Of a stretch of DNA of 64,000 nucleotides, positions 6,083 through 13,469 are shown one piece after another. The stretch's first letter is position 1. The number at the start of each line of letters is the position of its first letter. Below the pieces are notes generated by a model. It was not told the origin of the DNA. It did not search any database and saw only the letters and a program-made list of their open reading frames with translations. The position numbers and the translations under genes were made by a program. This DNA is from Streptomyces sp. NP160 (GTDB lineage: Bacteria > Actinomycetota > Actinomycetes > Actinomycetales > Quadrisphaeraceae): positions 23,863-87,862 of the forward strand of contig NZ_VDMJ01000044.1 of the NCBI RefSeq assembly GCF_006335115.1, read 5' to 3'.

Positions 6083-6134
6083 CCGTGATCATGGGCGTCC
6101 GCCACCTGGGGGTGGCGGACGCCCATGATCACGG
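6083..6134. repeat. 24-bp perfect hairpin, dispersed repeat or terminator
   Basis: A perfect 24-bp inverted repeat with a 4-base TGGG loop begins four bases after the rtcB stop. Arms start CCGTGATCATGGGC and end GCCCATGATCACGG. The same sequence in half form lies at 1-25. There is no T-tract. It may terminate rtcB, but its repetition elsewhere suggests a REP-like dispersed element. It runs up to 36 bases before the hen1 start. Confidence 0.75.
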
Positions 6135-6169
6135 TCGGGTGGGGTGGTCGGGGTGGAGAGGATGGGCGC

Positions 6170-7597
6170 GTGCTCCTGACGATCAGCGTGGCCGCGTCGC
6201 CGGTGATGCCGGTGGCGCGGGACCTCGGGTTCCTCCTGCACAAGCACCCCGACCGGGCGCAGTCCAGCGAGGTGTTCGGCGGCACCGCGCACGTGCTGTG
6301 GCCGGAGGCCGGCGAGGAGCGGGCCACGGCGGCGCTGCTGCTCGACGTCGACACCGCCGCCCTGCAGCGCGGTCGCAGCAGGGGGCAGACCCCCGAGGGG
6401 TTCGCCCTGGCGGACCACGTCAACGACAGGCCGTACGCCGCGAGCTCTCTGCTCGCCGTCGCGCTCGGGAAGGTCTTCAGGACGGCGCTGGCCGGGCGCT
6501 GTGACGCCCGCCCGGACCTCCCCGGCGAGGCGCTGCCGCTGGAGGTGCGCGTCCCGTCGCTGGTCAGCCGCGGTGGCGCGCCGATGGTGCAGCGCCTGTT
6601 CGCGCCGCTGGGGTGGGACGTCGACGCGCGCCCGCAGCCGCTCGACCCGCAGGTGCCCGGGTGGGGCGACAGCCGCGTCGTCGACGTCCACCTGCGCGGC
6701 ACCGTGCGGCTGGCCGACGCGCTGGCCCAGCTGTACGTGCTGCTGCCGGTCCTCGACGACGCCAAGCACTACTGGGTCAGCGCCGACGAGGTGGACAAGC
6801 TCGTCCGCGCCGGCGGCGACTGGCTGCCCGCGCACCCCGACCGCGAGCTGGTCATGACGCGCTACCTGCGCCACCAGCGGTCGCTGGTGCGCGACGCCGT
6901 CGCCCGCCTCGACGACGTGGAGGACATCCCCTCCCCGACCCTCCTCGCGGAGGAGGCGGCCGAGGAGCGCCCGACGCCGCTGGCGGTGCTGCGGCGCGAG
7001 GCCGTGCTGGGCGTGCTCCGCGAGGCGGGCGCGGCCAGCGTCGTCGACCTCGGCTGCGGCGAGGGCGGCCTCGTGCGCGAGCTGCTGCGCGACCCCCGCT
7101 TCACGCGCGTGGTCGGCGCGGACGTCTCCGCCCGCGAGCTCGAGCGGGCCGCCCGCCGCATCGGCACCGACCGGCTCCCCGACACCGTGGCCGCGCGCCT
7201 GGAGCTGCTGCAGACCTCCGCGACCTACCGCGACGACCGCCTCGCCGGCGTCGACGCCGTCACGCTCGTGGAGGTCGTCGAGCACCTCGACCCACCGCGG
7301 CTGCCGGCGCTGGAGCGCAGCGTCTTCGCGCACGCCCGCCCGCGGACCGTCGTCGTCACCACGCCCAACGCCGAGCACAACGTCCGCTACCCGGCCCTGG
7401 CCGCCGGGGACTTCAGGCACCCGGACCACCGCTTCGAGTGGACGCGCGCCGAGTTCGCCGCGTGGGCCTCGGAGGTGGCCGAGCGCCGCGGCTACGCCGT
7501 CGTCGTGGAACCGGTCGGGCAGGACGACGACGAGGTGGGCCCGCCCACGCAGATGGCCGTCTTCACCCGGCGCGACGGCAGCGAGGAGGCAGCGTGA
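6170..7597 (+). CDS. hen1: 3'-terminal RNA ribose 2'-O-methyltransferase Hen1
   Basis: 475 residues. The N-terminal half (about 1-240) matches the bacterial Hen1 domain that contacts Pnkp; the C-terminal half (about 270-475) is a SAM-dependent methyltransferase with VVDLGCGEGGLVREL (SAM loop), LVEVVEHLDPPRL (the E-x-x-E-H metal site) and VVTTPNAEHNVRYP. Bacterial Hen1 2'-O-methylates the 3' end of cleaved RNA before Pnkp seals it, so the repaired RNA resists the same ribotoxin cut. The GTG at 6170 is chosen over an upstream ATG that falls inside the hairpin repeat. Its stop overlaps the start of pnkp (GTGA), giving strict coupling of the two partners. Confidence 0.93.
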   Translation: MLLTISVAASPVMPVARDLGFLLHKHPDRAQSSEVFGGTAHVLWPEAGEERATAALLLDVDTAALQRGRSRGQTPEGFALADHVNDRPYAASSLLAVALGKVFRTALAGRCDARPDLPGEALPLEVRVPSLVSRGGAPMVQRLFAPLGWDVDARPQPLDPQVPGWGDSRVVDVHLRGTVRLADALAQLYVLLPVLDDAKHYWVSADEVDKLVRAGGDWLPAHPDRELVMTRYLRHQRSLVRDAVARLDDVEDIPSPTLLAEEAAEERPTPLAVLRREAVLGVLREAGAASVVDLGCGEGGLVRELLRDPRFTRVVGADVSARELERAARRIGTDRLPDTVAARLELLQTSATYRDDRLAGVDAVTLVEVVEHLDPPRLPALERSVFAHARPRTVVVTTPNAEHNVRYPALAAGDFRHPDHRFEWTRAEFAAWASEVAERRGYAVVVEPVGQDDDEVGPPTQMAVFTRRDGSEEAA

Positions 7598-10194
7598 GCG
7601 AGAAGGTGCTCGACGTCCCCGACCTCAGCCTCGTGGTGCTGGTCGGCGCCAGCGGCTCCGGCAAGTCGACGTTCGCGGCGCAGCACTTCGGCCCGTTCGA
7701 GGTGGTCTCCTCCGACCACTGCCGCGGGCTCGTCGCCGACGACGTCAACGACCAGGCCGCCACGGCCGACGCCTTCGACGTGCTCCACCACATCGCGGGG
7801 GTGCGCCTGCGCCGCGGCCACCTCACCGTGGTCGACGCGACCAACGTCCAGGCCGACGCCCGCCGCCAGCTGGTGGCACTGGCCCGCGAGCACGACGTGC
7901 TGCCGGTGGCGATCGTCCTCGACCTGCCGGAGCGGGTCTGCGTGGAGCGCAACGCAGCCCGGCCCGACCGCGACGTCGGCGCGCAGGTGGTCAAGCGCCA
8001 CCGCGACGCGCTCCGCCGGTCGCTGCGGTCCCTGCGCCGCGAGGGGTTCCGCACGGTGCACGTGCTGAGCTCGGTGGAGGAGGTGGCGGCCGCGCGGATC
8101 GTCAGGACGCCCCTGCGCTCCGACCGGCGCGGCGAGCACGGCCCGTTCGACGTCATCGGCGACGTGCACGGCTGCCGCTCGGAGCTGGAGACCCTGCTCG
8201 GCGCCCTCGGCTACGTCGTCACGCGCGACGGGCGCGGCCGCCCCGTCGACGCCGCGCACCCCGAGGGCCGGCGCGCGGTGTTCCTCGGCGACCTCGTCGA
8301 CAGGGGCCCCGACACCCCCGGCGTCCTGCGCCTGGTCATGGGCATGGTGCAGGCGGGGCACGCGCTCGCCGTCCCCGGCAACCACGAGGCCAAGCTCGTC
8401 CGCGCCCTCGACGGCCGCGACGTCACCGTCAGCCACGGCCTGGAGACCACGCTCGCCCAGATCGAGGCCATCGAGGACGACGACGAGCGGCGCGCCTTCC
8501 GCGAGCGCGTCCGCGGCTTCGCCGACGGCCTGGTGAGCCACCTGGTGCTGGACGACGGGAAGCTCGTCGTGGCGCACGCCGGGCTCAAGGAGGCGTACCA
8601 CAACCGGGCGTCCGGGCGGGTGCGCAGCTTCGCCCTCTACGGCGACACCACCGGCGAGTCCGACGAGTTCGGGCTGCCGGTGAGGCTGGACTGGGCGCGC
8701 GACTACCGCGGCCGCGCGACCGTGCTCTACGGGCACGTGCCGACGCCGGAGCTGGAGTGGGTCAACGGCACGCTCTGCCTCGACACCGGCGTGGTCTTCG
8801 GGGGCGCGCTGTCAGCGCTGCGCTGGCCGGAGCGCGAGCCGGTGCAGGTACCGGCGGAGGCAGTGCACTACGAGCCGGTGAGGCCGCTCGTCGCCGCGCA
8901 GCCGGTGCGGGACGACGACGACCTCGCGCTCACCGACGTCGTCTCGACCGACGGCGCGGGCCGCGGCGTCGAGACGCGCCTGGCGGGGCGGGTCGCCGTG
9001 GCCGCGGAGCAGGCGGCGGGGGCGCTGGAGGTGATGAGCCGGTTCGCGGTGGACCCGCACCTGCTCTGGTACCTCCCGGCGACCATGGCCCCTGCCGGCA
9101 GCTGGGCGGACGCGCCGGAGCTGCTGGAGCACCCGCAGGCGGCGTTCGAGGCGTACCGCAAGGTGGGCGTCACGGACCTGCTGTGCGAGGAGAAGCACAT
9201 GGGCTCGCGGGCGGTGGTGCTCGTGGCGCGCTCGCGCGACGGGCTCGCGCCGTGGTCGAGCACCGGCGGTGCGGTGCACACGCGCACCGGGCGCTCGTTC
9301 TTCGGCGAGGAGCTGACGGTCGCCCTCCTCGACCGGGTGCGCGCCGCGGCGGAGCGGGCCGGGCTGTGGGACGAGCTGTGCGGCCCGGCTGACAGCGCGA
9401 CCGAGGACCAGTGGGTGCTGCTCGACGCCGAGCTGCTGCCGTGGTCGGCGAAGGCCGAGGAGCTGCTCCGCACGCAGTACGCCGCGGTCGGCGCAGCGGC
9501 GAGGGCGGCGCTGCCGGCCGCCGTCGTCGCCCTGGAGCAGTCAGCGGCCCGCGGGCTCGACGTGGGCGCGCTGCTGGAGAAGACCCGCCAGCGGGAGGTG
9601 GACGCCACCGCGTTCACCGAGGCGTACCGCCGGTACGTGTGGCCGACCGGCGTGGCCGAGGGCCGGCTCGACGGCGTGCAGCTGGCCCCCTTCCAGCTCC
9701 TCGCCGCGTCCGGCGTCCAGACCTTCGGCGACCGCGACCACGGCTGGCACCTCTCCGTGGCCGACCGCCTGGTCGAGGCCGACCCGCAGCTGTTCCGCAC
9801 CACCCGGCGCCACCGCGTCGACGCTGCGGACGCCGCGTCCTGCGAGGCCGGCACCGCCTGGTGGACCGACCTCACGGCTGCCGGCGGTGAGGGGATGGTC
9901 GTCAAGCCGTTCGCCGGAGCCGCGCTGCGCGGGCCGAAGGGCGTCGTCCAGCCGGGCACGAAGGTGCGCGGCGCGGAGTACCTGCGGCTCGTCTACGGCC
10001 CCGGGTACACCCGCGACCTGGAGCGCCTCAGGCAGCGCCAGCTCGGCCGCAAGCGCGGCCTGGCGCTGCGCGAGCACGCGCTGGGGGTCGAGTCGCTGGC
10101 CCGCCTGGCCGACGGCGACCCGCTGTGGCGCGTCCACGAGGCGGTGTTCGCCGTGCTCGCGCTGGAGTCCGAGCCGGTCGACCCCCGCCTCTGA
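7594..10194 (+). CDS. pnkp: Polynucleotide kinase-phosphatase with ligase domain Pnkp
   Basis: 866 residues in three modules. An N-terminal kinase has the P-loop GASGSGKST (about residues 18-26) and phosphorylates 5'-OH RNA ends. A central metallophosphatase (about 180-430) has GDVHGC, FLGDLVDRGP, PGNHEAK and VVAHAG and removes 3'-phosphate or cyclic phosphate. The C-terminal ligase/adenylyltransferase domain (about 480-866) has CEEKHMGSRAVV with Lys534 as the predicted AMP acceptor, and GEGMVVKP. Length and order match characterised bacterial Pnkp. With Hen1 it forms the Pnkp/Hen1 RNA repair complex. The gene starts at a GTG overlapping the hen1 stop. Confidence 0.95.
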   Translation: MSEKVLDVPDLSLVVLVGASGSGKSTFAAQHFGPFEVVSSDHCRGLVADDVNDQAATADAFDVLHHIAGVRLRRGHLTVVDATNVQADARRQLVALAREHDVLPVAIVLDLPERVCVERNAARPDRDVGAQVVKRHRDALRRSLRSLRREGFRTVHVLSSVEEVAAARIVRTPLRSDRRGEHGPFDVIGDVHGCRSELETLLGALGYVVTRDGRGRPVDAAHPEGRRAVFLGDLVDRGPDTPGVLRLVMGMVQAGHALAVPGNHEAKLVRALDGRDVTVSHGLETTLAQIEAIEDDDERRAFRERVRGFADGLVSHLVLDDGKLVVAHAGLKEAYHNRASGRVRSFALYGDTTGESDEFGLPVRLDWARDYRGRATVLYGHVPTPELEWVNGTLCLDTGVVFGGALSALRWPEREPVQVPAEAVHYEPVRPLVAAQPVRDDDDLALTDVVSTDGAGRGVETRLAGRVAVAAEQAAGALEVMSRFAVDPHLLWYLPATMAPAGSWADAPELLEHPQAAFEAYRKVGVTDLLCEEKHMGSRAVVLVARSRDGLAPWSSTGGAVHTRTGRSFFGEELTVALLDRVRAAAERAGLWDELCGPADSATEDQWVLLDAELLPWSAKAEELLRTQYAAVGAAARAALPAAVVALEQSAARGLDVGALLEKTRQREVDATAFTEAYRRYVWPTGVAEGRLDGVQLAPFQLLAASGVQTFGDRDHGWHLSVADRLVEADPQLFRTTRRHRVDAADAASCEAGTAWWTDLTAAGGEGMVVKPFAGAALRGPKGVVQPGTKVRGAEYLRLVYGPGYTRDLERLRQRQLGRKRGLALREHALGVESLARLADGDPLWRVHEAVFAVLALESEPVDPRL

Positions 10195-10251: not shown

Positions 10252-11337
10252 TCAGCGGCTCGTGGAGGTGAGCTCCTCGCGCAGCAGGGCGGTCCCGGCC
10301 ACCAGGGCGCTGAGCTTGTCCTGCGCCACGGAGCGCGGCAGCGGCGCCATGCCGCAGTTGGTGCTGGGGATCAGGTGGTCCGCGTCGACGAACGCCAGCG
10401 CGCTCCGGAGCGTGTCGGCGACCTCGTCGGGGGTCTCCACCCGCTCGCTCGCCACGTCGATGGCCCCGAGCATGACCTTCTTGCCCCTGACCAGCTCGAT
10501 CAGCTCCAGCGGCACGTGAGAGTGGTGTCCCTCCAGCGAGACGATGTCGATGCTCGACCGCTGCAGCAGCGGGAAGGAGTTCTCGTACTGGCGCCACTCG
10601 GGTCCGAGCGTCGCCTTCCAGTCGGTGTTCGCCTTGATCCCGTAGCCGTAGCAGATGTGGACGGCCGTCTGGGCGCGGAGGCCCTGCGCCGCGCGCTCCA
10701 GCGCCGCCACGCCCCAGTCGCGCACCTCGTCGTGGAAGACGGTGAAGGCGGGCTCGTCGAACTGGATGACGTCCACCCCGGCGGCCTCCAGCTCGCGCGC
10801 CTCCTGGTTGAGGATCGTCGCGAACTCCAGCGCCAGCTGCTCCCGGCTGCGGTAGTGGCGGTCGTAGAGGGTGTCGACCATCGTCATCGGGCCGGGGAGC
10901 GCCCACTTGACCGGCTGGTCGGTCTGGCTGCGCAGGAACGCCGCGTCGTCGACGAAGACCGGCCGCTCACGGCTGACGGCGCCGACGACGGTCGGCACGC
11001 TCGCGTCGTACCGGTCGCGGATGCGGACCGTCTCCCGCTGCTCGAAGTCGACCCCGGAGAGGTGCTCGATGAAGGTCGTGACGAAGTGCTGCCGGGTCTG
11101 CTCGCCGTCGCAGACGACGTCGAGCCCACGGCGCTGCTGCTCCAGCACCACGGCGCGCAGCGCGTCCCGCTTGCCCTCGGCCAGCGCCTCCCCCTCCAGC
11201 CGCCACGGCGCCCAGAGGGTCTCCGGCTGCGCGAGCCACGAGGGCTTCGGGAGGCTGCCGACGATGGCGGTGGGGAGGAGTGCGGACACGGTCGGGGGCC
11301 CTTCGCTGGTGGACGGGGTGCTCGAGGGGGTGCTCAC
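10252..11337 (-). CDS. mesD: Core methionine synthase, MesD-like (MetE C-terminal domain only)
   Basis: 361 residues corresponding only to the catalytic half of cobalamin-independent MetE; the N-terminal folate-binding half is missing. The homocysteine/zinc site is complete: His227 and Cys229 (AVHICYGYG), Glu269 (SLEGHHSH) and Cys328 (STNCGMAPL). VIQFDEPAF is also typical. Families of such core synthases are known; MesD, from aerobic bacteria, works with a DUF1852 protein and oxygen rather than methyl-folate. The DUF1852 gene lies directly upstream and its stop overlaps this GTG (GTGA), which supports MesD. A second GTG at 11289 is a possible start. The methyl donor is not known to me. Confidence 0.85.
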   Translation of the reverse strand: MSTPSSTPSTSEGPPTVSALLPTAIVGSLPKPSWLAQPETLWAPWRLEGEALAEGKRDALRAVVLEQQRRGLDVVCDGEQTRQHFVTTFIEHLSGVDFEQRETVRIRDRYDASVPTVVGAVSRERPVFVDDAAFLRSQTDQPVKWALPGPMTMVDTLYDRHYRSREQLALEFATILNQEARELEAAGVDVIQFDEPAFTVFHDEVRDWGVAALERAAQGLRAQTAVHICYGYGIKANTDWKATLGPEWRQYENSFPLLQRSSIDIVSLEGHHSHVPLELIELVRGKKVMLGAIDVASERVETPDEVADTLRSALAFVDADHLIPSTNCGMAPLPRSVAQDKLSALVAGTALLREELTSTSR

Positions 11338-12326
11338 CCGACGAGCGCCGAGCGGCCGGCGACCCACCGCTCGAGGAGGTCGCGGTGCGGTTCCACGAAG
11401 TGCTCCTCGGTGAAGCGGCCCTGCGTGACGGCGAGGCGGCTGCGCTCCTCGCGGTCGTACTCGACCTGCGTGCGGGAGAAGTCCTCGTGGGCGAGGCTCG
11501 GCGTGTACACGCTCCCCGCCGCCGAGTTCGCGTTGTAGATCTCCGGCCGGTAGATCTTCTGGAACGCCTCCATCGTGGCGGTCGTGCCGATGAGCTGCAG
11601 GTCCGTGTAGTCGCCCAGCAGGTCGCCCCGGAAGTAGAACGCGAGCGGTGCCACCGCGCCGCGGGGCATGAAGAAGCGGACCCCGAGCCCCATCTTCGCG
11701 AAGTAGGCGTCCGTCAGGGAGTGCGCGTCCTGCAGGTACTCGACACCGAGCACGGGGTGCTGGTTCTCCGTCCGGCGGTAGGTCCGGCTCGTCGAGACGC
11801 TGATGCAGATCACCGGCGGCTGCGAGAAGCGCTGCCGGTAGGCGCTGGAGTCGAGGAACTCCGCGAAGAGCTTCCCGTGCAGGTCGCCGAAGTCGTCCGG
11901 CAGGGCGGTCCCGGGTGCACCCCCCGTGATCGAGGGCAGCCGCACGCTGAAGTCGTAGTCGCGGACGTAGGAGGAGAAGTTGTTCCCCACGATGCCGCGG
12001 TGGCGCTGTCCGCTGCGCCGGTCCACGACCTGGAGGTCCAGCACCTCGATCAGCGGGAAGCCGTCGCCCCCGCCGTCCTCGGCGAACCGCAGCTCGACGG
12101 AGACGATCTCCAGCTCCACCGCGTACCGGTCCTGCTCCGGGTTGTCCCAGTCGGCGAGGTCGTTGAACCGGCGGTCGATCATCGTCAGCACGCGGCGCAG
12201 GTTCTGCTGGCGCTGCGGCCCCCGGGCGAGGTTGGCGAAGTTCGTGGTGGCGCGGGAGCCGCTCGACGGCTCGTAGTCCTCGTCGAAGCGGGTGGTGGTG
12301 ATGGTGAAGTCGAAGCCGTTCGCCAC
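11334..12326 (-). CDS. mesX: DUF1852 protein, MesX-like partner of MesD
   Basis: 330 residues of the DUF1852 family: an N-terminal FDFTITTTRFDEDYEPS, then SRATTNFANLARG, LTMIDRRFNDL, RHRGIVGNNFSSYVRDYDFS and a C-terminal YRPEIYNANSAAGSVYTPSL. The family's function is uncharacterised biochemically, but genetics in other aerobes show it is needed, with oxygen, for MesD-dependent methionine synthesis. The GTG at 12326 is chosen because a GGGGG run lies about 7 bases upstream and the family starts at this point; an ATG 27 codons further upstream is unlikely. It is the first gene of the mesX-mesD unit and diverges from a LysR gene. Confidence 0.85.
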   Translation of the reverse strand: MANGFDFTITTTRFDEDYEPSSGSRATTNFANLARGPQRQQNLRRVLTMIDRRFNDLADWDNPEQDRYAVELEIVSVELRFAEDGGGDGFPLIEVLDLQVVDRRSGQRHRGIVGNNFSSYVRDYDFSVRLPSITGGAPGTALPDDFGDLHGKLFAEFLDSSAYRQRFSQPPVICISVSTSRTYRRTENQHPVLGVEYLQDAHSLTDAYFAKMGLGVRFFMPRGAVAPLAFYFRGDLLGDYTDLQLIGTTATMEAFQKIYRPEIYNANSAAGSVYTPSLAHEDFSRTQVEYDREERSRLAVTQGRFTEEHFVEPHRDLLERWVAGRSALVG

Positions 12327-12413
12327 GTGCGCCCCCTGCGGATCCCTGACCAGCCGGGCCGGCCCTGCGGTCGTCGAGCCCCCATCGTGGGGCTGGACCC
12401 CGATCATCAGGTA

Positions 12414-12428
12414 ATCCGCGAACAGGAT
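12414..12428. promoter_or_regulatory. Candidate LysR-type (T-N11-A) box
   Basis: ATCC-N7-GGAT contains a T-N11-A core, the usual form of LysR binding sites, and lies in the 123-base divergent region between mesX and the LysR gene, 22 bases before the LysR start. Assigned from symmetry and position only. Confidence 0.35.
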
Positions 12429-12449
12429 CGCGTCCTACAGTCAACGGCT

Positions 12450-13469
12450 ATGGCGCGACGGTCCAGCGGTGTGACGCTGCAGCAGCTGCAGTACTTCATC
12501 GAGGTCGCGGCGGAGGGGTCCATCTCCGCCGCCGCCGACCTGCTCTACGTCGCGCAGCCGACGCTGTCCGCCGCCATGAAGGAGCTCGAGGCCCGGGTGG
12601 GTCGTCCCCTCCTCCTCCGCTCGGCCCGCGGGGTCACGCTCACCACCGACGGGGCGGAGTTCCTCGGCTACGCCCGGCAGGTGGTCGAGCAGGTCGCGCT
12701 CCTCGAGCAGCGCTACCTCGGCGGGCCGCCGTCGCGGCGGCTGCTCGGGGTGTCGACGCAGCACTACTCGTTCGCCGTGGACGCCTTCGTCCGGATGGTC
12801 CGCCGCGCCGACAGCGCCCAGTACGAGTTCTCCCTGAGGGAGACGCGCACCTGGGACATCATCGAGGACGTCCGCACGCTGCGCAGCGAGGTGGGCATCA
12901 TCTACCGCAGCGACTTCAACCGGGCCGTCATCGACAAGCTGCTGCGGGACTCCGGGCTCGAGTTCCGGCCGCTCTTCCTCGCCGAGCCGCACATCTTCGT
13001 CTCCCGCAAGAACCCGCTCGCCGCCCGGGAGCGCGTGACCCTGGACGACCTCGCGGACCTCCCGCGGCTCACCTTCGACCAGGGGACGAACAACTCCTTC
13101 TACTTCGCCGAGGAGATCCTCTCCACCCTGTCGAGCGCGCGGGAGATCCGCGTCTCCGACCGCGCGACGATCTTCAACCTCATGATCGGGCTCGACGGCT
13201 ACACGATCTCGACGGGCATCATCAGCGACGACCTCGACCCCTCGATCGTCGCCGTCCCCCTCGACGTCGACGAGCGCATCGAGATCGGGTGGATCGACCA
13301 CTCCGCCATCCCCCTCACCGAGCAGGCGCAGCGCTACCTCGACGAGGTGCGTGCCGTGGTCGCGGGCTTCGGCGTCACGCTGCTCGGGCAGGAGCCAGGA
13401 CCGCAGCCGCCCGGCTCCCGGGCACCCGCCGGGCGCGGGGCCCAGCGAGGGGCTTCACTCGGTGCGTGA
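12450..13469 (+). CDS. LysR family transcriptional regulator
   Basis: 339 residues. The N-terminal winged helix (VTLQQLQYFIEVAAEGSIS, LYVAQPTLSAAMKELEARVG) is followed by a periplasmic-binding-like effector domain (about 95-310) and a Pro/Gly-rich tail. It is transcribed divergently from mesX-mesD, with 123 bases between the two starts, so it most likely regulates them in response to a methionine-pathway metabolite such as homocysteine, as MetR does for metE. That link is inferred from position. The ATG at 12450 lacks a strong Shine-Dalgarno, which suggests a nearly leaderless message. Confidence 0.88.
   Translation: MARRSSGVTLQQLQYFIEVAAEGSISAAADLLYVAQPTLSAAMKELEARVGRPLLLRSARGVTLTTDGAEFLGYARQVVEQVALLEQRYLGGPPSRRLLGVSTQHYSFAVDAFVRMVRRADSAQYEFSLRETRTWDIIEDVRTLRSEVGIIYRSDFNRAVIDKLLRDSGLEFRPLFLAEPHIFVSRKNPLAARERVTLDDLADLPRLTFDQGTNNSFYFAEEILSTLSSAREIRVSDRATIFNLMIGLDGYTISTGIISDDLDPSIVAVPLDVDERIEIGWIDHSAIPLTEQAQRYLDEVRAVVAGFGVTLLGQEPGPQPPGSRAPAGRGAQRGASLGA

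Follow-up and report, generated by a model that had tools for sequence, protein, structure and literature searches.

The window analysed here, the whole 64-kb stretch of DNA, carries mesX followed by mesD on the minus strand, both with intact reading frames, and a gene for a LysR-type regulator that diverges from mesX across a 123-bp gap (Table 1). A preliminary description had placed a MesX–MesD pair at this locus, and the family models agree: MesX scores 546.1 bits against PF08908 (gathering cut-off 25; model positions 3–323 of 323) and MesD 628 bits against NCBIfam family NF006589 (cut-off 392). This is an actual, intact pair, and it represents a known kind of system rather than a new one.

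Table 1. Features of the mesXD locus, in positions of the window
Feature	Position	Strand	Details
mesX (DUF1852, PF08908)	11334..12326	-	330 aa, GTG start; Pfam and comparison with relatives
mesD, core methionine synthase	10252..11289	-	345 aa, GTG start; PF01717, NF006589, 3RPD, active-site residues
LysR-type regulator ('MesR', name coined here)	12450..13469	+	PF00126 and PF03466; orthologues in 47/47 actinobacterial loci
Putative LysR operator and upstream promoter element	12406..12440	-	CTGTA-N6-GATCC-N10-TTAC-N2-GAT; degenerate, three mismatches to the relatives' module
Putative mesX -10 element	12384..12389	-	CACGAT; conserved spacing

The sole Pfam domain in the 345-aa MesD is PF01717, the catalytic domain of MetE. 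The N-terminal folate domain is absent, which bears out the earlier claim of a MetE-like protein without its folate-binding half. Eight other NCBIfam families are listed for MesD at E ≤ 0.001, each under its own cut-off. Against the MetE model TIGR01371, the match covers the C-terminal half only and reaches 113 bits (trusted cut-off 929.95), so the protein is not a full MetE. We also considered MesA, MesB and MesC. Scores of 226, 111 and 87 bits to NF003317, NF002119 and NF002272, which we take to be the NCBIfam models for these families, are below the respective cut-offs of 406, 258 and 399 and do not support these assignments. The published threshold for MesD is a phmmer score of 560 bits or more to ACIAD3523 (PMC7857596); using the MesD of the Acinetobacter baylyi type strain (locus L081) as a stand-in for ACIAD3523, we obtained 580.4 bits, with 73% identity. 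The nearest solved structure is PDB 3RPD (E = 2.4e-170), which is treated as a MesD in the text of PMC7857596. All seven residues of the zinc/homocysteine site are found, in keeping with the preliminary description: zinc ligands H211, C213, E253 and C312, and homocysteine residues S12, E63 and D178. Across 140 aligned rows, among which some loci are counted twice, these positions show no substitution, with gaps in one row at the Ser and in two at the last Cys. Taken together, the membership tests support assignment of the core enzyme to MesD and of its partner to MesX.

Pfam now describes PF08908 as 'Putative oxygenase MesX'. The window's MesX is 77–82% identical to its genus relatives. A model predicted from an alignment of 92 of 101 non-redundant MesX sequences has a pLDDT of 91 and a pTM of 0.91, and Foldseek searches with it returned nothing at E ≤ 0.001 in PDB (best 0.13) or BFVD (best 0.12). 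The MesX sequence itself has no match in PDB at E ≤ 1. VIA comparisons gave Z values of at most 3.8, with GNAT-kind acetyltransferases in many of the top rows; these matches are too weak to use, and we set a GNAT-like fold aside. Neither Foldseek nor VIA gave a recognisable match of the model to a flavin-oxygenase fold. The absence of a match to a predicted model is not proof of a new fold. Across the 92 sequences, just two histidines (H150 and H190) and one cysteine (C174) are invariant; these residues are among the invariant candidates for MesX chemistry.

The likely start of mesX is the GTG at 12326, because relatives start at the same position and the alternative upstream ATG, at 12407, falls inside a conserved promoter stretch. 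For mesD, a GTG at 11337 is a possible start that would overlap the mesX stop codon, and the preliminary description had the pair translationally coupled. However, the N-termini of relatives and an upstream GAAGGG point to GTG 11289, the start that we favour, which leaves 44 nt between the mesX stop codon and mesD. Coupling by overlap is therefore possible but doubtful. Co-transcription of the two genes is likely, because MesD lies immediately after MesX in 80/80 named loci. These are the best 80 of 591 stretches, chosen by likeness to the window's genus, and the 47 actinobacteria among them are a non-random sample.

The LysR that the preliminary description regarded as the pair's own is real, but it is not peculiar to this genome. 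Among the best 80 of 591 stretches, an orthologue (at least 497 bits) lies beside mesX in all 47 actinobacterial loci, as compared with none of the 33 others, two of which have LysR matches of only 48–51 bits. Identity with MetR was considered and rejected: the best of the 49 NCBIfam families listed gives 71.5 bits, the MetR cut-off being 382, and by BLASTP the protein resembles a MetR-like protein over just 71 aa of the HTH region. These comparisons mark the LysR as a dedicated, lineage-wide partner of mesX in actinobacteria, and not as MetR.

Upstream of mesX, the relatives share a module, CTATA-N6-CATAG-N10-TTAC-N2-GAT, followed by CA-N2-AT at the -10 place, all at fixed spacing. The underlying alignment holds 51 distinct intergenic regions, one of them (L012) wrongly anchored, for which we took the site from genome scans; it leaves out L003, L035, L062 and L145, in which LysR and mesX are on the same strand. 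The putative operator of the window is the sole match in the 64 kb when up to four mismatches are allowed, and the right half-site in this genus is unlike that of other genera. With at most two mismatches allowed, 50 of the 54 actinobacterial genome entries contain the module (46 of them once and four twice), compared to six matches of a reversed-pattern control in the same entries; G454 and G316 are the same contig, as are G423 and G407. The four entries without the module at this threshold are the window genome (three mismatches), G316 and G454, and G436, the last three having LysR on the mesX strand. Three proteobacterial genomes gave five module matches versus 15 for the control, and hence no excess. 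In 45/45 cases checked, the sites lie 988–1147 bp upstream of the MesD match. Since a genome has about one copy of the putative operator, and that copy lies upstream of mesX, the actinobacterial regulator seems to act on essentially a single target. It would activate mesX, and the signal may, as for MetR, be homocysteine. A regulator with essentially a single site would provide a simple reporter for the signal that the cell reads. Literature searches, including for DUF1852 together with LysR, turned up no published report on the actinobacterial mesX regulator.

In the leaders of actinobacterial mesX genes there seems to be a recurrent GGCC-loop-GGCC inverted repeat (e.g. at about 5964–5977 of L047), with changes in both arms at some loci; a conserved GGATTGG lies between the repeat and the start codon. 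RNAalifold predicted no base pairs on the gapped leader alignment. RNA scans covered the window, where they found two tRNAs only, and 22 of the 33 non-actinobacterial loci. In an uncultured Devosia, a cobalamin riboswitch lies upstream of mesX (L069:2410-2619, plus strand), in line with the report that B12 strongly represses the DUF1852 gene of Acinetobacter baumannii (PMC12892962). Another, at L048, is on the strand opposite to mesX, and the remaining matches at the 22 loci are tRNAs and a C4 RNA. Convergent with mesD, at 6125-10194 on the plus strand of the window, are genes for Hen1 (PF12623) and Pnkp (PF16542, PF00149, AAA_33), a bacterial RNA end-repair operon; tblastn did not find these proteins in the stretches around mesXD of other genus members. 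Among the larger neighbour families, with wrong-strand frames set aside, we saw no conserved neighbour beyond mesD, regulators and reductases that suggests a methyl donor.

All six genomes of the genus contain mesX, and none of seven others of the family does. The gene is present in 3/396 genomes of the phylum sample, the window genome included, and in 44/398 of the phylum to which A. baylyi belongs, counting A. baylyi itself. Midpoint-rooted trees of MesX and MesD were built for 63 loci (39 actinobacteria and 24 others). The six genus members cluster in both (support 0.89 for MesX, 0.95 for MesD); the 39 actinobacteria form one clade in the MesD tree (0.946), and the 24 non-actinobacteria one clade in the MesX tree (0.999). 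Four loci (L043, L070, L078 and L083) encode a MesD only ~57% identical to the window's, in a long clade (stem 0.75, support 1.0), together with an ordinary MesX (63–68%); they may represent a divergent MesD subfamily. The preliminary description called the occurrence of the pair and its LysR in an actinomycete notable. Both are indeed there, but Actinobacteria, including Paenarthrobacter aurescens, were already listed for MesXD by Price et al. 2021 (PMC7857596).

We asked which other methionine genes accompany the pair. In the window genome, we found no full MetE (only MesD matched), no MetF and no full MetH. The MetH search gave a single N-terminal-domain match of 46 bits, which corresponds to an MmuM-kind homocysteine S-methyltransferase of 337 aa on contig C99 (NF007020, 302 bits, cut-off 215). 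Enzymes of the MmuM kind need S-methylmethionine or SAM and are not de novo methionine synthases; this one could supply methionine from either compound. Judging from the gene content, mesXD appears to be the only standard final methionine step in this bacterium. None of the six genus genomes has a full MetE, a full MetH or a canonical MetF, and we infer that the genus makes methionine de novo through MesXD alone. Divergent matches to the MTHFR family, of 22–43 bits and over the Pfam cut-off, are present in three of the six, the window genome not among them. Elsewhere in the family, a genome of another genus without mesX (G399) has full MetE and MetF. A second mesX-free genome of the family (G398) shows a 38-bit core-MetE-like match and a 70-bit match to the MetH N-terminal domain, with no MetF match.

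The search for MetE, MetH and MetF took in 50 genomes from the best 80 of 591 stretches, 47 of them actinobacterial. The matches counted as MetF all score ≥215 bits, and partial PF02219 matches of 20–53 bits were set aside. MetE is found in seven of the 47 actinobacterial mesX genomes (including G445, where it is broken by a contig end) and full MetH in nine, and the union of the two is exactly the 11 genomes with canonical MetF (G410, 417, 418, 420, 421, 424, 425, 435, 441, 445 and 449); the other 36 have none. The association has a Fisher P value of 5.7e-11, not corrected for relatedness. Microbacterium and the Arthrobacter group each include genomes of both states. MAGs account for four of the 47 (L022, L025, L035 and L044), all without MetE, MetH and MetF. 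We examined eleven of the weak PF02219 matches (L184-L194), which are about 210–420 aa long. All ten of those scanned with Pfam exceed the cut-off of the MTHFR family, and none of the eight scanned with NCBIfam comes near the MTHFR equivalog cut-off (best 65 bits, versus ≥294). These proteins are divergent members of the MTHFR family. Among the 36 genomes without MetE or MetH, eight have such a protein over the Pfam cut-off, five more have a match below it, and 23 have no match at E ≤ 0.001. According to Price et al. (PMC7857596), 69% of sole-MesD proteomes seem to be free of MetF, as compared with 36/36 without canonical MetF in our actinobacterial set. The methyl donor was left open by Price et al., and actinobacteria that have only MesXD and lack MetF offer natural systems for testing it.

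A flavin reductase is encoded at 48 of the best 80 of 591 loci. The reductases are of two unrelated families that never occur together: a PF01613 type at 31 loci (after mesD in 30) and an MsuE-type FMN reductase at 17, before mesX. These counts come from profiles built here, and individual representatives were scored with the family models. The MsuE-type representative exceeds the cut-off of TIGR03566 (MsuE), and two PF01613 representatives match the HpaC, StyB and HsaB models under cut-off; these are reductases of the kind found in two-component monooxygenases. A relocated reductase gene in Microbacterium sp. cf046 (L012) lies beyond LysR and is preceded by a second copy of the mesX promoter module (L012:4869-4903, minus strand). 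In an expression table for Xanthomonas, an FMN reductase gene and a DUF1852 gene with neighbouring locus tags change by -2.57 and -2.53 (PMC7698356). At one locus (L071, record titled Bacillus subtilis SK6B4), the reductase is like those of Rhizobium and Devosia, and the record is probably mislabelled or contaminated.

A nearby putative flavin reductase had already led Price et al. to predict a flavin cofactor (PMC7857596). The swap of one reductase for an unrelated one strengthens this prediction and points to a flavin link of MesX. Weighing against it, mesXD has no neighbouring flavin reductase either in the window or in the stretches analysed from its genus. The nearest homologue of the actinobacterial-type reductase is elsewhere in the window genome, at 38% identity. 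Reductases accompany 18 of the 47 actinobacterial loci versus 30 of the 33 others (best 80 of 591); the remaining 29 actinobacterial loci have none nearby, and some of these loci end at a contig edge. On balance, we infer that MesX uses reduced flavin. The two unrelated reductases and the one copied mesX promoter point assays towards reduced flavin.

Our main reading, with a probability of roughly 0.8, is that mesX and mesD form a LysR-controlled operon in which MesX, with reduced flavin and O2, makes the methyl donor for MesD. A separate flavin reductase would deliver the reduced flavin to MesX, and the reaction with O2 would yield the donor, be it a methylated side chain of MesX or a small product. 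MesD would then move the methyl group onto zinc-bound homocysteine, so that methionine forms independently of methyl-folate, MetF and B12. In published work on E. coli and Sphingomonas, with S. koreensis genes, MesD is active only alongside MesX and in the presence of oxygen, and can do without MetF or B12 (PMC7857596). By extension from that work, the window's pair would be folate-independent and O2-dependent, and folate independence fits the absence of MetF from the window genome. Besides the missing neighbouring reductase and fold match, points against the main reading are the degenerate operator of the window, the divergent MTHFR-family proteins in eight of the 36 genomes and in three of the six of the genus, and the MmuM-type enzyme. 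A broader version holds that MesX is an FMNH2/O2 enzyme of new fold, served by interchangeable reductases and drawing the methyl group from central metabolism, and that MesXD is often the sole actinobacterial route, under MesR (CTATA-N6-CATAG), permitting repeated joint loss of canonical MetF, MetE and MetH. To this we give about an even chance.

MesX could instead be an O2-dependent metalloenzyme, with the flavin reductases merely keeping its iron reduced. The two invariant histidines and the invariant cysteine would suit such an enzyme, as would the lack of a flavin-oxygenase fold match and the 29 of 47 actinobacterial loci without a nearby reductase. However, the reductases that do occur resemble those of two-component monooxygenases (over the cut-off for MsuE, under it for HpaC, StyB and HsaB), and we consider this alternative unlikely. 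Another proposal, that MesX is a flavin-dependent reductase replacing MetF, which would convert methylene-tetrahydrofolate to a methyl-folate-like donor and need O2 only indirectly, draws on the linkage of mesXD to flavin reductases and on the lack of canonical MetF in 36/36 sole-MesXD actinobacteria of the set. Yet MesD has no folate domain, and the rescue of E. coli delta-metF in air, which fails without oxygen (PMC7857596), is hard to fit with a reductive step; we judge the proposal distinctly improbable. That the window's pair is redundant or decayed, with methionine coming mainly from uptake or an MmuM-type enzyme, could be argued from the degenerate operator and the homocysteine S-methyltransferase gene on C99, but it is hardly credible given two intact frames, the identity of MesX to its genus relatives, a full set of MesD catalytic residues and retention of the pair in 6/6 genus genomes.

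The closest known systems are the MesX–MesD pairs of A. baylyi and Sphingomonas koreensis (PMC7857596), in which the same families occur, mesX precedes mesD and the sites are intact. The window's pair differs in being actinobacterial, with a dedicated LysR and its own operator, in a genus without an adjacent flavin reductase and a genome without full MetH or MetF. Isolates of Acinetobacter and Rhizobium appear to escape N2O via MesD homologues (PMC13059711). With MetE, MesD shares the catalytic C-terminal domain and the zinc ligands, the N-terminal folate domain being the part that is missing. Paenarthrobacter aurescens TC1 (L013, G414) has the same LysR-mesX-mesD order, and searches of its genome found neither a full MetE or MetH nor a MetF; unlike the window, it has a PF01613 reductase gene immediately downstream of mesD and a mismatch-free operator. 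We believe the lineage-specific regulator and operator, the exact pattern of canonical MetF and the linkage to two reductase families to be new, all three as predictions from sequence. The nearest regulatory parallel is MetR of Proteobacteria, likewise a LysR-type regulator, for which Leyn et al. 2014 (PMC4239095) describe a well-conserved PF08908-metE2 target operon. The MetR motif is ATGAA-N5-TTCAT, in contrast to the CTATA-N6-CATAG predicted for the actinobacterial LysR, and the window's LysR resembles a MetR-like protein only in the DNA-binding region.
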